Positions 31,017 to 39,611 of a stretch of DNA of 64,000 bases are shown here, piece after piece. This DNA is from Chloroflexota bacterium (GTDB lineage Bacteria > Chloroflexota > UBA6077 > FW602-bin22 > JACPRP01). The stretch lies in contig JAMCWX010000018.1 in assembly GCA_023480885.1 (NCBI GenBank), forward strand, positions 1 to 64,000, read 5' to 3'. The notes under the pieces were generated by a model that was not told the origin of the DNA, ran no database searches, and was given only the letters and a program-made list of their open reading frames with translations. The stretch's first letter is position 1. The number at the start of each line of letters is the position of its first letter. The position numbers were made by a program, and so were the translations under genes.

Positions 31017-31190
31017 TCCGCCACCTGACTATACCCATACACACCCACCGCCTTCGCCCCCAGCGCGGTGATGGCCTCCGGGGTACGATCGCCAAGGTGT
31101 TTTCGCAGGTCGGTAGGATAGACGGGATCCACCGGTCCGAACTGGACGATGAACAGATGCCCGTGTCCAGCTTGACACCCTAGCTATCTA
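31017..31190 (-). pseudogene. Protein-like fragment of unknown family in a 320-base gap
   Basis: A minus-strand frame of about 55 codons reads HLFIVQFGPVDPVYPTDLRK, then HLGDRTPEAITALGAKAVGV and YGYSQVADY. It looks like real protein sequence (ordered hydrophobic and charged pattern, proline turns) but has no start or stop appropriate to a gene and overlaps the ftsZ end. I do not recognise the family. The rest of the gap up to 31338 holds no gene. Confidence 0.3.
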
Positions 31191-31338
31191 GCGTTATTAT
31201 TGCCCCTAGCACACTCTCGTTGCGCGTTCCCGCGCTTTTCGACAGCGCGGACCCGGCCATTGAGCGAGAACTCCGGCAATTGTTTTGAGGGGGACCGATT
31301 TTGCCAACTGGCAACACACCACCCAGGAGGCGGATTCG

Positions 31339-34300
31339 GTGACAATGTCATCTGACCTGACCTTCATTACGAATGAGCCCGGCAATGCACTTAGAGATCG
31401 CTTCGGCGTCTTGCTCCGAGACGATACACGTTTCTTCGACTGCCTGGTGGGGTACTTCTTCGTCAGCGGCTTCTATGAGCTTTACCCTGCCCTGGAGAAT
31501 GTTGAGAAGGTTCGAATACTGGTCGGTCTCCGGACAGACAGGACGGCCTACGAGCTCATCCAGAGAGCCGGCGCGCAGGGCGAACCGCCCTTGTTGTCCC
31601 ACGCCTCGGCAAAAGAACAGGTGTCCAACGACGTGCTTGGCGAAATCGAACGTTCTCCGGACACCGCCGAGATCGAGACAGGCGTTCGCAAATTTGTGAA
31701 GTGGATTCGCTCAGGGAAACTCGAAATCAAAGCTTACCCTTCGGAGAATCTTCACGCGAAGGTCTACATTATGACTTTCGCCGAGGGAGATAGGGATAAA
31801 GGGCGCGTGATAACCGGCTCCAGCAACCTGACCCAGGCAGGGCTGCAGGCGAACCTGGAGTTCAACGTGGAGCTCAAGAACCGCTCTGATTATGATTTCG
31901 CCATCGCCAAGTTCAATGAGCTTTGGGACATGGCGGTGGACGTTTCGGAGCCCTACGACGACGCGATCACGAACCGGTCGCCCTACGCCCAATTCGCCCC
32001 TCACGAGCTGTATCTCAAGTTTCTCTACGAGTATTTTCGCAATGAACTCAGCCGCCCGTCAGAGCTGGACGATGTCTTCGTCCCAACCGGCTTCAAGAAG
32101 CTGAGGTATCAGGAAGAGGCGGTTCTCAACGCCCGCAAGGTCCTCGACGAATACGGTGGGGTATTTCTCGCCGACGTCGTTGGGTTGGGCAAGACATACA
32201 TGTCGGCCCTGCTGGCACAGCAGCTCGATGGCCGCCACCTGGTCATAGCGCCGCCGCAGTTGCTAGATAGAGACAAGAGGGGCTCGTGGCCCAATGTGTT
32301 CGGCGATTTTCAGGTTCGGCAATCGGAATTCGTGTCAATCGGCAAGCTGGAGAGCCTCCTGGAACGCGACATCTCAGAGTACAAGAATGTCTTTATCGAC
32401 GAGTCGCACCGCTTCCGCACGGAGACCACGCAGACCTACGAGACTCTCGCTCAGATCTGTCGGGGCAAACGAGTAATCCTCGTCTCGGCCACGCCCCTGA
32501 ACAACACGCCCGGAGATATTCTCAGCCAGGTCAAGCTCTTCCAAAACGGCAAGGCGAGCACAATTCCCAACCTGCGCAACCCGGAGGCGTTCTTTGCGGG
32601 GCTGAATCGGAAACTCAAAGGTCTGGACAGGCGACGCGACCGCGAGCTTTACTTTCAGACCATTCAAGCCAACGCCAGGGCGACGCGCGAGAGGGTTCTC
32701 AAGTATCTAATGATACGGCGAACGAGAACCGAGATCGAGAGGTACTACGGCGAGGACATGAGGCAACAGGGGATAAAGTTTCCCGAGGTGAAGGACCCCG
32801 AGCCGCTCTTCTACAAGTTCAGCAAGCAGGAGAACGGAATCTTTGACGAGACAGTTCGTCTGCTAGTTTCCGAATTCAAATACTCACGCTACAGACCACT
32901 CACGTATTACCGGGGCAAGAGGGCCGAGCAGGAGATTCAAAGCCAGCGCAACCTGGCCAAGTTCATGAAGATACTCATGATCAAACGCCTCGAGAGCAGT
33001 TTCCACGCGTTCCGATTGACCCTCGACAGGTTCATTCGGTCGTACGAACGGGTGATCGACGAACTTAGGAACGGGAACGTCTACATCAGCAAGAAACACA
33101 TCAACAAGATATTCGAGGCGCTGGAGGAGGATAATCAAGAAGCCATTGAAAGATTGCTGGAAGAGGACAAAGCCGAGAGGCTGAGCGCGAGCGATTTCTC
33201 GGGCGATTTCCAGCGCGACCTCGATAGCGACTACAAGACGCTACTTAGCGTTAAGAAACTCTGGACGAAGGCCCGACGCGATCCGAAATGGGAGTCCTTC
33301 CGTGAAGTCCTCAAGTCGCAACCAGCTTTGAACAAGGGGAAGCTGATCATCTTCACCGAGTCACAGGAGACGGCTGCCTATCTTGCGGACCGAATCAGAG
33401 AAGAGGTCGAGCCCAGGGTAATTCTTTTTTCAGGGCAGGCGAGCGAAGACGCGCACAAGGACGTGATCGCGAACTTCGATGCCAACGCTTTCCACCCGCG
33501 TGACGACTACCGCGTTCTCGTGAGCACGGAGGTCCTCTCCGAAGGCGTTAACCTCCACCGCTCGAACATCGTGATCAATTACGACATCCCCTGGAATCCG
33601 ACCCGCCTCATCCAGCGCGTCGGGCGCGTCAACCGCGTGGACACTAAGTTCGACGAGATCCGCACCTACAACTTCTTCCCCACGGAGGAGAGCAATGACC
33701 TCATCAAGCTAAAGGAAGCGGCGGAAGCGAAGATTCACGGCTTCATCGAAATGCTTGGCGCGGACGCGCGCCTGCTGACCGAGGGCGAGGAGATCAAGTC
33801 CCACGATTTGTTCGCCAGGTTGAACTCCAGAAAGACCATCACAGGCGAGGATGAAGAGGAAGAGAGCGAGCTGGAATATCTGACTGAGATACGAGACGTC
33901 CGCGACAAGAACCCCGAGCTGTTTGCGCGCATCAAGCGCCTGCCGAAGAAGGCTCGCTCGACCAGGCATCTCCCGCTGGCGCCGGATATGCCCGTCAAAG
34001 AGTTTCCGTCGCTGCTGACCTACTTCCGCCAGGGCCGGCTCGACAAGTTCTATGTGGCCCAGCAAGGCGCAACAGAGGCCGCCGAGCTGGATTTTCTGAC
34101 CGCGGTCAAGATTCTCAAACCCGTTGACCCGTCTGAGCAGCGGCAGACAATCCCGCGAGATTTCTATGCCCTGCTCGACAAAAACAAGGACGCCTTCGCC
34201 GCCGACACCAGCCCCGAAAACGACGACGCCATCCCCAGGCACAGAGGCGGCGCGAACGACGCCTATATCCTGAAACGGCTCAAGGCATGGGAAATCCGCC

Positions 34301-34560
34301 AGTATCCGGGCTTCACCGAGGACGACGAAGCGTACATCCAGCGGGTGATCCAGCTTCTGGCCGACGGCGCGCTCCCGAAGCCCACCGCCAGGACGGTCGC
34401 GGAAGCATTGAAGAAGGTGAGCCAACCCCTGAGGGTTCTAGGTGTCCTCAAGCGGGACATCCCCTCGCAGTTCCTTCAGCCCACGCGAGCCCAGCAGACT
34501 TCCCAAACGCTCAGTCCCCGGGAAGTCATCCTCTCATCTTACCTGGTGGAGGAGAAGTGA
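31339..34560 (+). CDS. PLD-type nuclease fused to an SNF2 helicase (candidate defence protein)
   Basis: A 1073-residue protein. The N-terminal part (about 1-210) is a phospholipase D-like domain with one HxK motif, HAKVY (about 138), and GSSNLT (about 160), as in single-HKD nucleases that work as dimers. A superfamily 2 SNF2-type ATPase follows: ADVVGLGKTY (Walker A, about 277), DESHRFR (about 353), SATPLNNTPGD, STEVLSEGVNL and QRVGRVNRVD (motif VI, about 758). The last 240 residues are unassigned. AGGAGG eight bases upstream supports a GTG start at 31339. The stop overlaps the start of an adenine methylase (GTGA), implying one complex: probably ATP-driven DNA translocation plus cleavage guided by methylation. 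Restriction is inferred. Confidence 0.85.
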   Translation: MTMSSDLTFITNEPGNALRDRFGVLLRDDTRFFDCLVGYFFVSGFYELYPALENVEKVRILVGLRTDRTAYELIQRAGAQGEPPLLSHASAKEQVSNDVLGEIERSPDTAEIETGVRKFVKWIRSGKLEIKAYPSENLHAKVYIMTFAEGDRDKGRVITGSSNLTQAGLQANLEFNVELKNRSDYDFAIAKFNELWDMAVDVSEPYDDAITNRSPYAQFAPHELYLKFLYEYFRNELSRPSELDDVFVPTGFKKLRYQEEAVLNARKVLDEYGGVFLADVVGLGKTYMSALLAQQLDGRHLVIAPPQLLDRDKRGSWPNVFGDFQVRQSEFVSIGKLESLLERDISEYKNVFIDESHRFRTETTQTYETLAQICRGKRVILVSATPLNNTPGDILSQVKLFQNGKASTIPNLRNPEAFFAGLNRKLKGLDRRRDRELYFQTIQANARATRERVLKYLMIRRTRTEIERYYGEDMRQQGIKFPEVKDPEPLFYKFSKQENGIFDETVRLLVSEFKYSRYRPLTYYRGKRAEQEIQSQRNLAKFMKILMIKRLESSFHAFRLTLDRFIRSYERVIDELRNGNVYISKKHINKIFEALEEDNQEAIERLLEEDKAERLSASDFSGDFQRDLDSDYKTLLSVKKLWTKARRDPKWESFREVLKSQPALNKGKLIIFTESQETAAYLADRIREEVEPRVILFSGQASEDAHKDVIANFDANAFHPRDDYRVLVSTEVLSEGVNLHRSNIVINYDIPWNPTRLIQRVGRVNRVDTKFDEIRTYNFFPTEESNDLIKLKEAAEAKIHGFIEMLGADARLLTEGEEIKSHDLFARLNSRKTITGEDEEEESELEYLTEIRDVRDKNPELFARIKRLPKKARSTRHLPLAPDMPVKEFPSLLTYFRQGRLDKFYVAQQGATEAAELDFLTAVKILKPVDPSEQRQTIPRDFYALLDKNKDAFAADTSPENDDAIPRHRGGANDAYILKRLKAWEIRQYPGFTEDDEAYIQRVIQLLADGALPKPTARTVAEALKKVSQPLRVLGVLKRDIPSQFLQPTRAQQTSQTLSPREVILSSYLVEEK

Positions 34561-37500
34561 ATCGTAGCCAAGCGTACGACCTAGTCCGCCAGACATTCGC
34601 CCATAAGTTCGACAAGAGCCTCTTCGCGAGGGTCAGCAGGGAGCTCTTGAACCATATGGACGAGTCCAGGGCAAAGTCGTGGAATAGCCAGTACGTGAAG
34701 GACGCCTTCAAGGGACACGTCCAGCGTTACGAACGCCTGGGCACGTACACCTCGCCGAAAAAAGAGAAACTAGACGTCTTGATTGTCTACCTGACCAGCG
34801 AATCCAAGCTCGAGCGCGCCCGCACGGCGATACGCAATTTTGTGGCGGACCACCTGAAAACCCGCGACGAAAAGGACGCCGCCCTCGTGGCGTTCGTCTC
34901 GCCCTCGGAAAGCACCTGGCGGTTCTCTTACATCAAAATGGAATACGCCTCCGTCGAAAAGCCCACCGGCAGAGTCGGCGTCGAAGCGCGCCTGACGCCG
35001 GCGCGGCGCTTTTCCTACATCGTCGGGGAGGGCGAGAGCTGCCACACTGCGCAGACCCGATTCCTGGGTTTGCTTCAAGATACCGCGACCGACCCGACGC
35101 TGGCGGATATCGAGGATGCATTCAGCGTCGAGGCCGTCACCAAGGAGTTCTTCACCAGGTACGCGGAGCTATTCGGGGAGATCCACAAGGCGCTGGACAG
35201 GCTGGTCGTCAATGACGCGACAGTCCGCGACGAGTTCGCGGCCAAGGGCCTCAAGACCGTGGACTTTGCCAAGAAGCTTGTGGGCCAGATCGTGTTCCTG
35301 CACTTTCTCCAAAGGAAGGGCTGGCTTGGCGTCGGCAAGGGGCAGGACTGGGGCAGCGGCCCGCGCGATTTTCTGCGGCGGATGGCCAACGGCGAGTACG
35401 GCAAATACGACAATTTCTACAACGACGTTCTCGAGCCCCTCTTTTACGACACCCTCGCCACCGACCGCGGGCACGAGGCATGGTGCGATCGTTTCCAGTG
35501 CCGCGTCCCCTTCCTCAACGGCGGGCTCTTCGAGCCGCCTGGCGATTATGACTGGCGCAAGACGGACATCATCCTGCCCAACAAATTGTTTACCAACGCC
35601 GAGCACGTGGAGGAGGGCATCAGGGGCACGGGTGTCCTCGACGTGTTCGATCGTTACAACTTCACGGTCAACGAGGCCGAGCCGTTGGAAAAAGAGGTGG
35701 CCATCGACCCCGAAATGCTCGGCAAGGTCTTCGAAAACCTGATCGAAGAAAACAGGCGGAAGGGGCTGGGCGCGTATTACACCCCGCGCGAGATCGTCCA
35801 CTATATGTGCCAGGAAAGCCTCATCAACTACCTGGACACGGCGGTCAACGCGCGCGAGAAATCCCTCGTGCCGGAAAAACCTGAGCAAGGAAAGCTCTTT
35901 GGGGAACCCGAGCCGGTGCAGACCACGCTGAAAACGCCCGCGTATGAGGAAGTTGTTCCCCGTGCCGACATCGAAACCTTCGTCCGCCTGGGCGAGCAAA
36001 TCTCCCACTACGAGGCAGTGGACACCAGGTATCCTGTTAAGATGCCGAAGAGTATCGAACAACACGCACGGTTGATCGACGAGAAGCTCGCCGAGATTAC
36101 CGTTTGCGACCCGGCCGTCGGGTCGGGCGCGTTCCCCGTGGGGATGATGACCGAGATCGTCCGCGCCCGCTGCGCGCTCACGCCCTACTTCAACGACGTC
36201 CACGAGCGCACGCCATACCACTTCAAGCGCCACGCCATTCAGAATTGTCTCTACGGCGTGGACATCGACGCCGGCGCAGTCGAGATCGCCAAGCTGCGCC
36301 TCTGGCTTTCCCTGGTGGTGGACGAAGAGGACGTGAAGCAGATCAAGCCATTGCCGAATCTCGATTACAAGATTGTGACAGGGAACTCGTTGACCGGCGT
36401 GGAAAAGAATCTGTTCAACGTGGACCTTTTCGAACGACTGGAAGACTTGAAGCCACGCTATTTCAACGAGTCAGACAAAACCAGGAAGGGCACGTACAAA
36501 CACGAGATCGATACTTTGATTCATTTGCTTACCAAAGGCAAACAGGCATTTGACTTCGAGGTGTATTTCTCCGAGGTATTCCACCTGAAGCGCGGATTTG
36601 ACGTCATGATTGCCAATCCGCCATATGTTAGTCATGACCAGATAACCGAAGACAAGGACACACTCAGGCGCATTTTCAACGCCTACAATGCCTTCGCTGA
36701 TCTCTACTGCTACTTCCTTGAGCGGGCAGTTGACTTATTGCACCTTGAAGGCACACTAACTTTTATAACTTCGAACTCATACTTGAAGGCGGAGTACGGC
36801 GCTAAACTAAGATCACTTCTCCGCAAGAAAACAACAATTCGACAACTGCTGAATCTTGAGGTATCTCAGATCTTCTCTGACGCAATTGTCAATGTGGCAA
36901 TCCTGGTTGCACAAAAAACGGGCAGCCAAGGTGAAAGGCAAACAGACATGGCGAGGGTTAGCAACAGCACCTGGAACTCAGATGGTTTTCATGAGTTTGT
37001 GCGGTCCCAGTCCTTTTTCATCCCGTTGCAGCACTTTCTTAGCCCCCAGTGGAGCCTGGAAAAACCCGAGATTCTTGCGGTTCGGTCCAAAATCGAGATT
37101 GGGGGCCGCACGCTTAAGCAGATGGGGGCGAAGATCCGGCTTGGGGTGGCAACGGGCTGTAACGATGCCTTCGTTATCGATTCGGCAAAGCGAGAAGAAC
37201 TTATCCTGGAGCAGAAGGCCAGCGCCGACATCATTGTACCTGTTATCAGGGGACGTGACGTGGAGAGATACGGCAACCTCAAACCCAGCCTATTCCTCAT
37301 CGCGGCAAAAAATGGCGTTAATATTATGCGGGACTATCCGGCCATCTATGGACACCTTCATTCGTTCGGAGAGAAGTTCCGGAAGCGCGGCGCACAGGGC
37401 GAGAACTGGTGGAACTTAAGGGCATGTGCCTTCTACGACGACTTTAGCAAGGACAAAATTGTGTGGATGGAACTCAGTGATAAAGCGCGGTTTACCAAGT

Positions 37501-37874
37501 GCCAAGCGGGTGTCTGGTGCCTCAACTCCGCGTACTTTTTGTTACCTCCACACGCATGCTCCGCGAACTACCTTCTCGCAATTCTTAACTCTCGAGCAAT
37601 CTACTTCTACTTCAAGCTGATCGCGCAGACCAGCGGCATGGGTGTACCACGATGGATTAACCTGTATGTGGAGCAGTTTCCAATCCCGAACGCAGCCCCT
37701 CAGATCAGGACGAAACTAGAGGATATGGTTGAATGTATCCTTTCACAAAAGCAGAGCAATCCCAAGGCCGGCACGTCGGCGCTAGAGCAGGAAATTAATG
37801 AGGCTATTTACCGGCTCTATGGTCTTACCGATGAGGAAATCGCCATCGTGGAAGAATCGACCCGTACGACGTGA
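34557..37874 (+). CDS. Eco57I-type adenine-specific DNA methyltransferase with target-recognition domain
   Basis: 1105 residues from a GTG with GGAGGAG upstream. The N-terminal 400 residues are alpha/beta with no clear PD-(D/E)xK nuclease that I can see. The methylase core has AYYTPREIVHYM (about 408), the SAM motif VCDPAVGSGAFPVGM (about 516-530), YGVDIDAGAVEIAKLRLWLSL, and the catalytic NPPY (about 687). The C-terminal 270 residues hold the recognition domain (VIRGRDVERYGNL, GVPRWINLYVEQFPIP). Base composition falls sharply just after NPPY. It is coupled by a four-base overlap to the PLD-helicase. The pair resembles a split type ISP or IIG restriction system. PglX and DrmMI are relatives, but no BREX or DISARM partners are present. 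Confidence 0.87.
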   Translation: MNRSQAYDLVRQTFAHKFDKSLFARVSRELLNHMDESRAKSWNSQYVKDAFKGHVQRYERLGTYTSPKKEKLDVLIVYLTSESKLERARTAIRNFVADHLKTRDEKDAALVAFVSPSESTWRFSYIKMEYASVEKPTGRVGVEARLTPARRFSYIVGEGESCHTAQTRFLGLLQDTATDPTLADIEDAFSVEAVTKEFFTRYAELFGEIHKALDRLVVNDATVRDEFAAKGLKTVDFAKKLVGQIVFLHFLQRKGWLGVGKGQDWGSGPRDFLRRMANGEYGKYDNFYNDVLEPLFYDTLATDRGHEAWCDRFQCRVPFLNGGLFEPPGDYDWRKTDIILPNKLFTNAEHVEEGIRGTGVLDVFDRYNFTVNEAEPLEKEVAIDPEMLGKVFENLIEENRRKGLGAYYTPREIVHYMCQESLINYLDTAVNAREKSLVPEKPEQGKLFGEPEPVQTTLKTPAYEEVVPRADIETFVRLGEQISHYEAVDTRYPVKMPKSIEQHARLIDEKLAEITVCDPAVGSGAFPVGMMTEIVRARCALTPYFNDVHERTPYHFKRHAIQNCLYGVDIDAGAVEIAKLRLWLSLVVDEEDVKQIKPLPNLDYKIVTGNSLTGVEKNLFNVDLFERLEDLKPRYFNESDKTRKGTYKHEIDTLIHLLTKGKQAFDFEVYFSEVFHLKRGFDVMIANPPYVSHDQITEDKDTLRRIFNAYNAFADLYCYFLERAVDLLHLEGTLTFITSNSYLKAEYGAKLRSLLRKKTTIRQLLNLEVSQIFSDAIVNVAILVAQKTGSQGERQTDMARVSNSTWNSDGFHEFVRSQSFFIPLQHFLSPQWSLEKPEILAVRSKIEIGGRTLKQMGAKIRLGVATGCNDAFVIDSAKREELILEQKASADIIVPVIRGRDVERYGNLKPSLFLIAAKNGVNIMRDYPAIYGHLHSFGEKFRKRGAQGENWWNLRACAFYDDFSKDKIVWMELSDKARFTKCQAGVWCLNSAYFLLPPHACSANYLLAILNSRAIYFYFKLIAQTSGMGVPRWINLYVEQFPIPNAAPQIRTKLEDMVECILSQKQSNPKAGTSALEQEINEAIYRLYGLTDEEIAIVEESTRTT

Positions 37875-38193
37875 CTGCAGAAGAACTTCTTTTCCGCTGA
37901 CCCGCCTAGTACTTTGGGCCTCCCCTGTCCAGCCCAGTCGCTATCTCAGGAAACAGCCAGTTGATTGATTCGTTGGACGCCCATGGCAGACCTGGGCCAG
38001 CCCTTCGCACGAAGCGTTCCCCACATTCCGCTACCGCAGTATACTCATCGCCAGCAGACCGGCGCGAGAATAGTTTGGTTATCATACCCGTCCTTGTCCG
38101 CCACGGGCCTCGGTAGTAGAATAGATATTACAGGGTTGAACGGCCCTTCGTGCAAAGGCGATAGCGGCGCTAGCGCCAGGGGAAACGGTACCT
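37875..38193 (+). other. Gene-free gap after the methylase
   Basis: 319 bases with no supported gene or terminator. TAGAAT near 38118 could be the -10 of the next gene. Confidence 0.4.
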
Positions 38194-39219
38194 ATGTCGG
38201 AGAGCATCCAGGACATACTGTTTGTGGAGCTTGTCGGCGGCATCGGCGACCTGCTTATCGCGCTGCCGGCCATTCACGCCACAGCCCGCTCCCATCCCGA
38301 TGCGCGCCTGAACGTCCTGACCTTCCCCGCGCACGCCGAGCTGATCGAGAAAGACCCGCTCATCGCGCGCATCTTCACGACGCCGCCTGAGGGCGGCTCA
38401 CGGGATTACCTCTCTCAAACCGAAACCCTGCGCGACGTGCTCGCGAGCGAGCGTTTCGACGTCGTCGTCTCCGACGCATCCTATGGCGGCATCGACCGCC
38501 TGGTGGAAGGCAGCGGCGCAAGGCGCAAAGTATCACACCTTCGGCAACGATCCTCCGGAGAAGAATCGATCGAGGAGCGATTGGTCTCGCTCCTCGTCGA
38601 CGAGGGCCTGGTCGACGCCGCTTTTCGCGGACTGATCGGGCGCATAGCGCTTAGCAGCGACGAGCGGCTATGGGCCAGGGTATGGCTGTGCAACAACCTG
38701 CCGGGACGAAAACGCAGCGCGGTCATTCATCCAGGGGCAGGAATGGCCATCAAGCGCTGGCCGACCGAACGCTTCGTTAGCCTAGGCAAGTGGCTGGCGC
38801 AAGAGGCTGAGCTTAATGTCATCATCTCGGCTGGCGACGAGAACCGTCTGGCCGAGGAGATCGCGCTCGGCGTCGGCGCCGACGCCTTCATACTGCCGAA
38901 GACCGGCCTCAGGAAGTTCGCCGCCATGGTTGCGGAGGCGGTCGTCTTCGCCTCAGTCGATACGGGGCCCGCTCGCGTTGCCGCGGCTGTGGGCACTTAC
39001 GCCATCGTCCTGTTCGGTCCCAGTTGGGCTGGCCTGTACGGTCTTCGCGAGTCCAGCGTCAACCTCCAGTCGCCGAGACCATGCCCAGAGCGAATGCGAT
39101 TCAATTTCGCCGAGCAGAGCTGCTGGCAAAGCGGCGTATGCATTTACCCCGAGATCCGATCGTGCGTCGAGGATATAGGGGTGGAGATGGTGGTGAGCGA
39201 GATACGGAAGGTTTTGTGA
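38194..39219 (+). CDS. Glycosyltransferase family 9 (heptosyltransferase-like)
   Basis: A 341-residue GT-B glycosyltransferase of the ADP-heptose:LPS heptosyltransferase family: ILFVELVGGIGDLLIALPAI at the N-terminus (about 8-27), VIHPGAGMAIKRWPTERF (about 177-194), and VFASVDTGPARVAAAVGTYA with VLFGPSW near the C-terminus. It transfers a sugar from a nucleotide donor to a cell-surface glycan. The acceptor is unknown, since a classical LPS is not expected in most Chloroflexota. A cysteine-rich tail (CPERMRFNFAEQSCWQSGVC) is also seen in other GT9 proteins. AGGGGA lies upstream of the ATG. Confidence 0.85.
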   Translation: MSESIQDILFVELVGGIGDLLIALPAIHATARSHPDARLNVLTFPAHAELIEKDPLIARIFTTPPEGGSRDYLSQTETLRDVLASERFDVVVSDASYGGIDRLVEGSGARRKVSHLRQRSSGEESIEERLVSLLVDEGLVDAAFRGLIGRIALSSDERLWARVWLCNNLPGRKRSAVIHPGAGMAIKRWPTERFVSLGKWLAQEAELNVIISAGDENRLAEEIALGVGADAFILPKTGLRKFAAMVAEAVVFASVDTGPARVAAAVGTYAIVLFGPSWAGLYGLRESSVNLQSPRPCPERMRFNFAEQSCWQSGVCIYPEIRSCVEDIGVEMVVSEIRKVL

Positions 39220-39325
39220 GAACAGCCTGCCTGCTTATGTTGAGTGGCAGGGAGACCGAGTTGGATAGCAATACAATCCTTTAATACTCGCCTCCAGGAT
39301 TCTTTCAAACTCCCTCCCAAACCTG

Positions 39326-39379
39326 TTGACAGGCACTAGATTTTGTGCTAAATTGCATACCGGGCACAAGATGTAGTAG
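39326..39379 (+). promoter_or_regulatory. nrdR-nrdJ promoter with two NrdR boxes
   Basis: TTGACA (39326-39331), 17 bases, TAAATT (39349-39354). The spacer contains GCACTAGATTTTGTGC (39333-39348), and GCACAAGATGTAGTAG follows at 39364-39379. Both match the NrdR box (CAC-W-ATATAT-W-GTG) with few mismatches, and their centres are 31 bases apart, about three helical turns, the usual tandem geometry. Confidence 0.8.
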
Positions 39380-39513
39380 TTATGCAAAGTAAGGCGAGGC
39401 ATTCATCTATCTGGGACGTCGTTTCGCACCCTCGAAGCGTCGAATGAGATCGAAGACTCAAGCGAGCGTGCCCACGATACATCACGACGCAACCATAGCA
39501 CCACGCCCAGCCT

Positions 39514-39611
39514 GCTAGGAAGGACATTCTGGGATGCGTTCCCCCGCAATGCCCGGCTCAGGGGCTTGATAACTGAGACGCTAGGAAGGACATTCAAGGA
39601 TGCGTTGCCCC
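39514..39611 (+). repeat. Direct repeat duplicating the nrdR initiation region
   Basis: GCTAGGAAGGACATTC, two differing bases, then GGATGCGTT, occurs at 39514-39540 and at 39580-39606, offset by exactly 66 bases. The second copy contains the nrdR ribosome-binding site and ATG; the first contains an equivalent ATG that opens a short reading frame. Confidence 0.85.
39534..39569 (+). CDS. Short upstream open reading frame (uORF) before nrdR
   Basis: ATG to TGA, encoding MRSPAMPGSGA. It has the same ribosome-binding context (AGGAAGGA) as nrdR, which begins MRCP, because the region is duplicated. If translated it would deliver ribosomes 30 bases upstream of the nrdR start. Function is not established. 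Confidence 0.4.
   Translation: MRSPAMPGSGA

Follow-up and report, generated by a model that had tools for sequence, protein, structure and literature searches.

CglI and NgoAVII are restriction enzymes that have a cognate methylase, and together with SauUSI and certain BREX-related helicases they are the described systems nearest to the gene pair considered here. In the available parts of two reports, CglI and NgoAVII are described as combining a phospholipase D (PLD) nuclease with a superfamily 2 (SF2) helicase-like ATPase for ATP-dependent cutting, with the PLD domain and a B3 recognition domain in the R protein, the ATPase as a separate H protein, and an R2H2 composition (PMC5737866, PMC7913695). 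The Type IV enzyme SauUSI, as presented in the same partial account, carries an N-terminal PLD domain and an SF2 ATPase in one chain, forms a dimer via the PLD domains, and has its own SRA domain and cuts methylated DNA (PMC7913695). For type 2 of the DUF499-centred BREX-related (BR/Hma) systems, the accessible sections describe an HKD-SNF2 helicase with an N6-methylase and propose a role resembling restriction-modification (PMC12839542; PMC7641849); BR systems are there given a DUF499 ATPase and usually DUF3780 (PMC12839542). The pair lies in a 64,000-nucleotide stretch from a Chloroflexota bacterium (contig JAMCWX010000018.1, positions 1 to 64,000; assembly GCA_023480885.1), referred to below as the window, and consists of a gene for a PLD-SNF2 protein followed by a gene for an Eco57I-type N6-adenine methylase. 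Judged from sequence comparisons, the two genes appear to form a restriction-modification system in which the PLD-SNF2 protein would cut foreign DNA and the partner methylase would read and protect the sites, and we put the probability of this at about 0.7. The pair resembles CglI and NgoAVII in coupling a PLD nuclease with an SF2 ATPase, SauUSI in having the N-terminal PLD domain and the SF2 ATPase on one chain, and BR/Hma type 2 in joining an HKD-SNF2 helicase with an N6-methylase; it is likely a variant of ATP-dependent restriction-modification.

The original prediction had proposed a split restriction-like machine in which the PLD domain cuts, and this proposal is supported by pairing of the two genes at 59 of 60 loci, by a PLD site identical in 75 of 75 proteins, by a methylase in which no nuclease signature is conserved, and by a hypervariable recognition domain confined to the methylase. 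The loci come from a one-genome-per-species scan that gave at least 577 stretches encoding relatives of the helicase, the best 80 of which were kept (L numbers below). The helicase frame ends in a stop at 75 of the 80; the five with an open frame were excluded from the pairing count, and L052 was kept in it despite a broken helicase frame. Where the frame is stop-ended and at least 2 kb follows downstream (60 loci), the methylase is encoded on the same strand at all but one, no farther than about 1.9 kb from the helicase. A methylase is present at 66 loci; at 39 of these the distance is at most 153 bp, at 25 it exceeds 300 bp and reaches about 1.8 kb, and two (L060, L062) give no match to the first 100 methylase residues. 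By record title, the helicase relatives belong to Chloroflexota, Verrucomicrobia, Planctomycetota, Proteobacteria, Nitrospirota, Bacteroidota, several candidate phyla and archaea. The earlier claim that similar pairs occur in many genomes was thus borne out, and the homologues, whose rare adjacency had been named as telling against the idea, are regularly adjacent.

Within the phylum, an even sample of 400 genomes contained methylase residues 1-200 in five (E <= 1e-15), every one adjoining the helicase, and a helicase of at least 56% identity in six, of which five are paired and the sixth runs into a contig end. No third gene recurs: among 100 flanking open reading frames (ORFs) of at least 120 aa from 25 loci, no Pfam family had more than two matches at E <= 1e-8. 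Relatives are few in the plasmid collection, with seven records (28-35% identity) at E <= 1e-60, and in the phage collection, with three (24-27% identity) at E <= 1e-30. The source genome (G000; 3.09 Mb, 76 contigs, 88.7% complete) holds a single helicase match. Separately, around distant PLD-SNF2 helicases (L182-L201; about 26-34% identity by tblastn), distant methylase relatives were seen nearby in 13 of 20 fetched loci, either upstream or downstream of the helicase, which points to a wider clade of such systems; DUF499 gave one weak partial match there (59 bits, L186).

Both ORFs of the pair are intact, and the methylase start overlaps the helicase stop by four nucleotides (GTGA). Rechecking of the ORFs, translations and motif positions returned the lengths, coordinates, frames and motifs given before. 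The description of the first protein as a single-HKD PLD-like domain joined to an SNF2 ATPase also held, with PLDc_2 (one stretch), SNF2-rel_dom (residues 319-468) and Helicase_C all above the curated Pfam cut-offs and a QRVGRVNR motif at residue 759 in RecA domain 2. Conservation was read from a helicase alignment of 74 relatives plus the window (75 rows) and a methylase alignment of 51 plus the window (52 rows), with 50 loci, the window included, present in both; structure prediction drew on every methylase row but one, which failed a length filter (51 used), and on 70 of the 73 helicase rows that passed it (again with the window). The PLD residues H139 and K141 are identical in all 75 proteins, as are G160, S161 and S162 of GSSNLT and N172, while E174 is found in 74 of 75; in the Walker A region each residue from D279 to T286 is invariant (75/75). 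The best solved relative of the PLD domain is 7clg_A (E 0.0059), over residues 126-206 that cover both HAK and GSSNLT, a structure we take to be that of SauUSI. By analogy with SauUSI, which is dimeric through its PLD domains, a single PLD domain would need a dimer.

The second protein agrees with its earlier assignment as an N6-adenine methylase having the DPAVGSGAF and NPPY motifs, its Eco57I domain scoring above the cut-off. D518, P519, A520, G522, S523 and G524 are each present in 52 of 52 rows, and N687 and P688 in 51, the remaining row being gapped. It had further been claimed that the methylase contains no PD-(D/E)xK nuclease. Pfam gave no nuclease domain in the methylase, and no match of any kind at E <= 0.1 for residues 1-400 of the window protein; a model of these residues (pLDDT 85) gave no Foldseek fold match at E <= 0.001; and a conserved E-x-K is not present in the N-terminus of the alignment (E82 in 33 of 52 rows, K84 in 8 of 52). 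The claim is therefore upheld with the qualification that a degenerate fold is possible: residues 1-180 may have either a degenerate nuclease fold or a different one. The helicase-spacer family MmeI_hel was matched by 2 of 51 methylase members (best E 0.0035).

The evidence on target recognition comes from comparing the regions of the two proteins across the 50 shared loci. With 1,225 locus pairs per region, the PLD and RecA regions have a median pairwise identity of 61%, the methylase core one of 57% and the helicase C-terminus one of 49%; for methylase residues 760-1090, within which the TaqI-like domain lies, the median over 1,020 alignable pairs falls to 22%. Even among close relatives, with RecA identity of at least 72%, this region is less than 30% identical in 61 of 69 alignable locus pairs; L086 and L098, for example, are 89% identical in RecA and 24% in the recognition region. 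No part of the motor-nuclease is comparably variable; most simply, then, its specificity would come from the methylase, a single recognition domain there serving both modification and restriction. Types I, III and ISP likewise draw their specificity from the methylase. In Mantel comparisons with helicase-core identity, r was 0.75 for methylase residues 1-180, 0.37 for the methylase core and 0.16 for the recognition region, and it was 0.77 for residues 1-180 when the comparison was limited to the 21 loci whose two genes are separated by over 500 bp. Since the 400 genomes show the methylase N-terminal domain solely beside the helicase, and the two diverge together, this domain is likely a docking domain for the PLD-SNF2 helicase.

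A working scheme can be assembled from these parts. The methylase would read the target site and protect the cell's own DNA by methylation, and its N-terminal domain would dock the PLD-SNF2 protein, giving both activities one recognition domain. An unmethylated site would trigger ATP hydrolysis and movement along the DNA; two PLD domains would then join into one cutting centre, as in SauUSI and BfiI, with which the PLD-SNF2 protein would cleave foreign DNA either at the sites read by the methylase or past them. At a methylated site neither ATP hydrolysis nor motion would start. An accessory gene, often of toxin type, that many relatives carry in a slot between the two genes might provide a second line of defence. 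A broader proposal, which we hold tentatively and at somewhat below even odds, is that such pairs represent one more class of ATP-dependent restriction enzymes, in which a PLD-SNF2 motor with no recognition domain of its own borrows that of a swappable methylase through a dedicated docking domain whose fold has found no match so far, the slot loading a lineage-specific toxin or accessory gene.

The slot is an exchangeable site for differing accessory genes, often toxin-type, in many relatives. It was scanned with Pfam for the accessory genes of 13 of the 25 gap loci (L029, L040, L045, L047, L048, L057, L069, L080, L084, L085, L093, L098 and L100), and for L060 and L079. Each of the 13 has at least one Pfam family above cut-off in the slot, the families being DUF4062, Bro-N, AbiEii, Fic, NYN, Schlafen AlbA_2, DUF3800, HepT with nucleotidyltransferase (MNT), PIN, DUF559 and TumE; two further small slot ORFs (L084, L100) gave no Pfam match. 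L060 and L079 carry a gene directly behind the helicase, Bro-N and AlbA_2 respectively. Among the 12 gap loci outside the Pfam scan, the gaps of L061 and L081 contain no ORF of 100 aa on the same strand, and the window pair has no accessory gene between helicase and methylase. In L060 (13186-14729), a possibly decayed locus, the Bro-N gene is accompanied by just a C-terminal methylase piece. Behind the helicase of L096 (3366-7235) there is ample room, with a 263-aa ORF (unscanned) and then a DegT/DnrJ-type gene.

In the window, the pair is flanked on one side by Mur ligase, D-Ala ligase, FtsQ-type, FtsA and FtsZ genes and on the other by glycosyltransferase-9, NrdR and ribonucleotide reductase genes, all from Pfam, with some of the gene names presumed from their domains. 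The ftsZ-nrdR junction (31017-39599) is filled by about 8.6 kb containing the pair and the glycosyltransferase-9 gene, the match-to-match distance being 8,587 bp. Both ftsZ and nrdR were found in 53 of 60 relatives searched, and they lie 19-621 bp apart, match to match, in eight (G003, G004, G009, G032, G034, G044, G046, G053). The genome G004, from the same order, matches the window collinearly over ftsA-ftsZ-nrdR-reductase-radical SAM but lacks the pair and the glycosyltransferase gene, and in G001, of the same family and with no nrdR found, DNA similarity to the window ends five bases past the ftsZ stop. From the tight junction in the eight relatives, the collinearity of G004 and the end of similarity in G001, the pair and the glycosyltransferase gene are most simply taken as additional DNA in a pre-existing ftsZ-nrdR junction. 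The earlier picture of a slot between ftsZ and a glycosyltransferase gene stands in so far as the slot is present, whereas the extra DNA is probably wider and likely includes the glycosyltransferase gene, given the short junction in these eight relatives against the 8,587 bp here. The restriction mechanism does not rest on the insertion reading. Between ftsZ and the helicase, on the minus strand (31017-31180), there is also a coding-like stretch of about 50 codons that looks like a gene remnant. Table 1 lists the coordinates.

Table 1. Features of the PLD-SNF2 and methylase gene pair and its surroundings, in window coordinates
Feature	Position	Strand	Details
AGGAGG ahead of helicase GTG start	31325-31330		
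PLD-SNF2 helicase-nuclease gene	31339..34560	+	1,073 aa; ORF and translation; GTG start
Single PLD (HKD-type) nuclease domain	31498..31926	+	Residues 54-196; PLDc_2 36.9 bits, cut-off 27, one stretch
HAK of PLD motif	31753-31761	+	HAKVY at residue 139
GSSNLT	31816-31833	+	Residue 160
SNF2-type RecA domain 1	32104..32742	+	Residues 256-468; Pfam ResIII and SNF2-rel_dom
Walker A VVGLGKT	32176-32196	+	In RecA domain 1
DESH	32398-32409	+	In RecA domain 1
RecA domain 2 (Helicase_C)	33325..33639	+	Residues 663-767; 73.1 bits, cut-off 23.5
C-terminal alpha+beta region, weakly RapA-like	33943..34557	+	Residues 869-1073
Eco57I-type N6-adenine methylase gene	34557..37874	+	1,105 aa; ORF and translation; GTG start
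N-terminal alpha+beta domain, proposed helicase-docking domain	34557..35096	+	Residues 1-180
Helical spacer	35097..35756	+	Residues 181-400; mostly helical in model
Methyltransferase core	36108..36875	+	Eco57I domain, residues 563-773; 132.5 bits, cut-off 25.3
DPAVGSGAF	36108-36134	+	Residue 518
NPPY	36615-36626	+	Residue 687
TaqI-like target-recognition domain (TaqI_C)	37239..37685	+	Residues 895-1043; 53.3 bits, cut-off 26.5
Glycosyltransferase-9 gene	38194-39219		

Neither protein passes an NCBIfam cut-off. The best NCBIfam model for the helicase is DrmD (145.7 bits against a cut-off of 610) and for the methylase BREX_1_MTaseX (86.1 bits against 500). With PADLOC, the best helicase model is C3a139 'HKD+Snf2' (residues 38-799, E 2.3e-46), the DrmD, BrxHI and HmaA models matching with sub-threshold similarity, and the best methylase model is REase_MTase_IIG PDLC03596 (residues 1-1102, full length, E 7.4e-288). 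At the same 25 loci, the 100 closest ORFs matched 168 PADLOC families and 50 far ORFs matched 29, which is only suggestive of defence-island enrichment, as these are counts of families and not of genes, the models overlap, and the ORF sets differ in size.

Several points weigh against a restriction-modification pair or against parts of the case made for it. The full-length Type IIG label from PADLOC would place the nuclease in the methylase's own chain. The pair is surrounded by housekeeping genes of the cell wall, cell division and nucleotide reduction, and ten window proteins scanned, which do not include every ORF, gave no PADLOC match at E <= 1e-15, both of which speak against a defence island at this site. 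The conservation counts come from the 80 best-scoring loci of one scan and so favour close relatives; one locus of the 60, L096, has no methylase, and L060 retains merely a C-terminal piece. The argument for shared recognition is indirect, and the helicase C-terminus, at 49% identity, could contact DNA with some specificity, while linkage of the two genes may explain part of the Mantel trend. The insertion reading is based on 8 of 53 relatives; five others (G013, G033, G047, G049, G055) have ftsZ and nrdR on one contig at a large distance, and 40 have them on different contigs, so that conservation of the junction does not extend across the whole phylum.

Other explanations of the pair were weighed against the same observations. 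The methylase could be a complete Type IIG enzyme with an unrecognised N-terminal nuclease, as its PADLOC label would imply, leaving the PLD-SNF2 protein as an accessory processing or remodelling factor. This is unlikely, because the catalytic E-x-K is not conserved, Foldseek returned no match at the threshold used, the methylase N-terminal domain was never seen apart from the helicase in the 400 genomes, and the PLD residues are invariant. Also improbable is a DISARM- or BREX-like exclusion, in which the methylase would mark self and the SNF2 motor would stop unmarked phage DNA from being replicated or packaged, with no specific cutting. The sub-threshold similarity of the helicase to DrmD, BrxHI and HmaA would fit such a system, as would its weakly RapA-like C-terminus, a feature reported for BREX-type helicases in the part of the source available (PMC12839542); yet no neighbour family recurs, the 80 loci gave no DUF499 match, and an invariant PLD site is hard to explain if nothing is cut.

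A helicase-methylase pair acting in abortive infection or genome housekeeping, with no restriction role, would suit both the setting of the window pair among cell-division and nucleotide-reductase genes and the toxin-type slot genes of many relatives. We consider it very improbable in view of the patchy distribution (six of the 400 phylum genomes, at the identity given above), a probable insertion where 8 of 53 relatives have ftsZ and nrdR close together, and the hypervariability of the recognition domain, all three being usual in restriction-modification.

If the restriction-modification reading is correct, a widespread system, present in many bacterial phyla and in archaea, sits in databases as two unlinked entries, labelled 'helicase-related protein' or 'HKD+Snf2' on the one hand and 'Type IIG' on the other. 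It would make it possible to test directly how a motor-nuclease that lacks a recognition domain learns where to start. The many natural recognition-domain variants on one conserved motor would lend themselves to studies of DNA specificity, and the variable slot is a place to seek further defence genes.

Among described systems, the BR/Hma type 2 helicase is the closest described PLD-SNF2 fusion. G000, 88.7% complete as noted, gave no DUF499 match, and neither did the 80 loci, with flanks of at most 10 kb and some short contigs, when 24 proteins from DUF499 loci were run against them by tblastn. Conversely, of 20 DUF499 loci taken from relatives, ten gave helicase matches (71-92 bits), none over the PLD region, and none gave a methylase match; DUF3780 gave no match in G000 and likewise none in control genomes. 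With no DUF499 near the pair and no close relative of the pair in the DUF499 loci, a comparison of sequences that included no true type-2 helicase indicates that the pair is a different system from the DUF499-centred BR systems. DISARM class 1 (DrmD/DrmMI) and ARMADA, in the accessible part of their description, contain a SNF2/RapA-like helicase and N6-methylase pair inside larger systems, to which YprA-type helicases and other genes are added (PMC12458937), whereas here the pair stands alone and has its own PLD domain. DISARM class 1 was set aside on the DrmD score given above. DrmA, DrmB and DrmC were not at the locus, where the neighbours are ftsZ, glycosyltransferase-9 and nrdR and the ten scanned proteins, some ORFs being unscanned, have no PADLOC match. 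No YprA-family helicase is among the Pfam-named window neighbours, the other loci having had no search aimed at YprA. PbeA is introduced, in the portion of its report available, as an HKD-SF2 helicase of ABC-ATPase systems (PMC10853773); its PADLOC model matches the helicase best over residues 29-309 (60.8 bits, E 2.4e-17), well below C3a139, and the Pfam-named window neighbours are not of the PbeB-D kind, no search having been aimed at PbeB-D. The two best PADLOC models, C3a139 and PDLC03596, are separate entries not joined as one system, and a literature search, with most subscription papers and REBASE outside it, found no description of the two-gene system.

Compared with the classical types, the pair resembles Type ISP in having nuclease, SF2 motor, methylase and recognition domain acting together. 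Type ISP enzymes are single chains with an Mrr-family nuclease in the part of the account available (PMC4666363), whereas the pair is encoded by two overlapping genes, uses a PLD nuclease, and has no Mrr or PD-(D/E)xK domain by Pfam. For Type IIG there is the full-length PADLOC match of the methylase, yet no nuclease domain or conserved E-x-K was found in it. Type I systems have a separate HsdS, whereas here TaqI_C is within the methylase chain and the neighbours are ftsZ and the glycosyltransferase gene. CglI/NgoAVII and SauUSI are closer mechanical precedents than the Type ISP, DISARM and BREX systems named in the original prediction. From CglI and NgoAVII the pair differs in carrying PLD and SNF2 on one chain, with no B3 match in the Pfam scan of the pair and the sole recognisable recognition domain in the methylase. 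From SauUSI, as partially described, it differs in having a partner methylase, at 59 of 60 loci, and no SRA match in the same scan. If the proposed mechanism holds, PLD chemistry, an SNF2 motor and a shared recognition domain would be combined in a manner unlike Types I, III and ISP, CglI and SauUSI.

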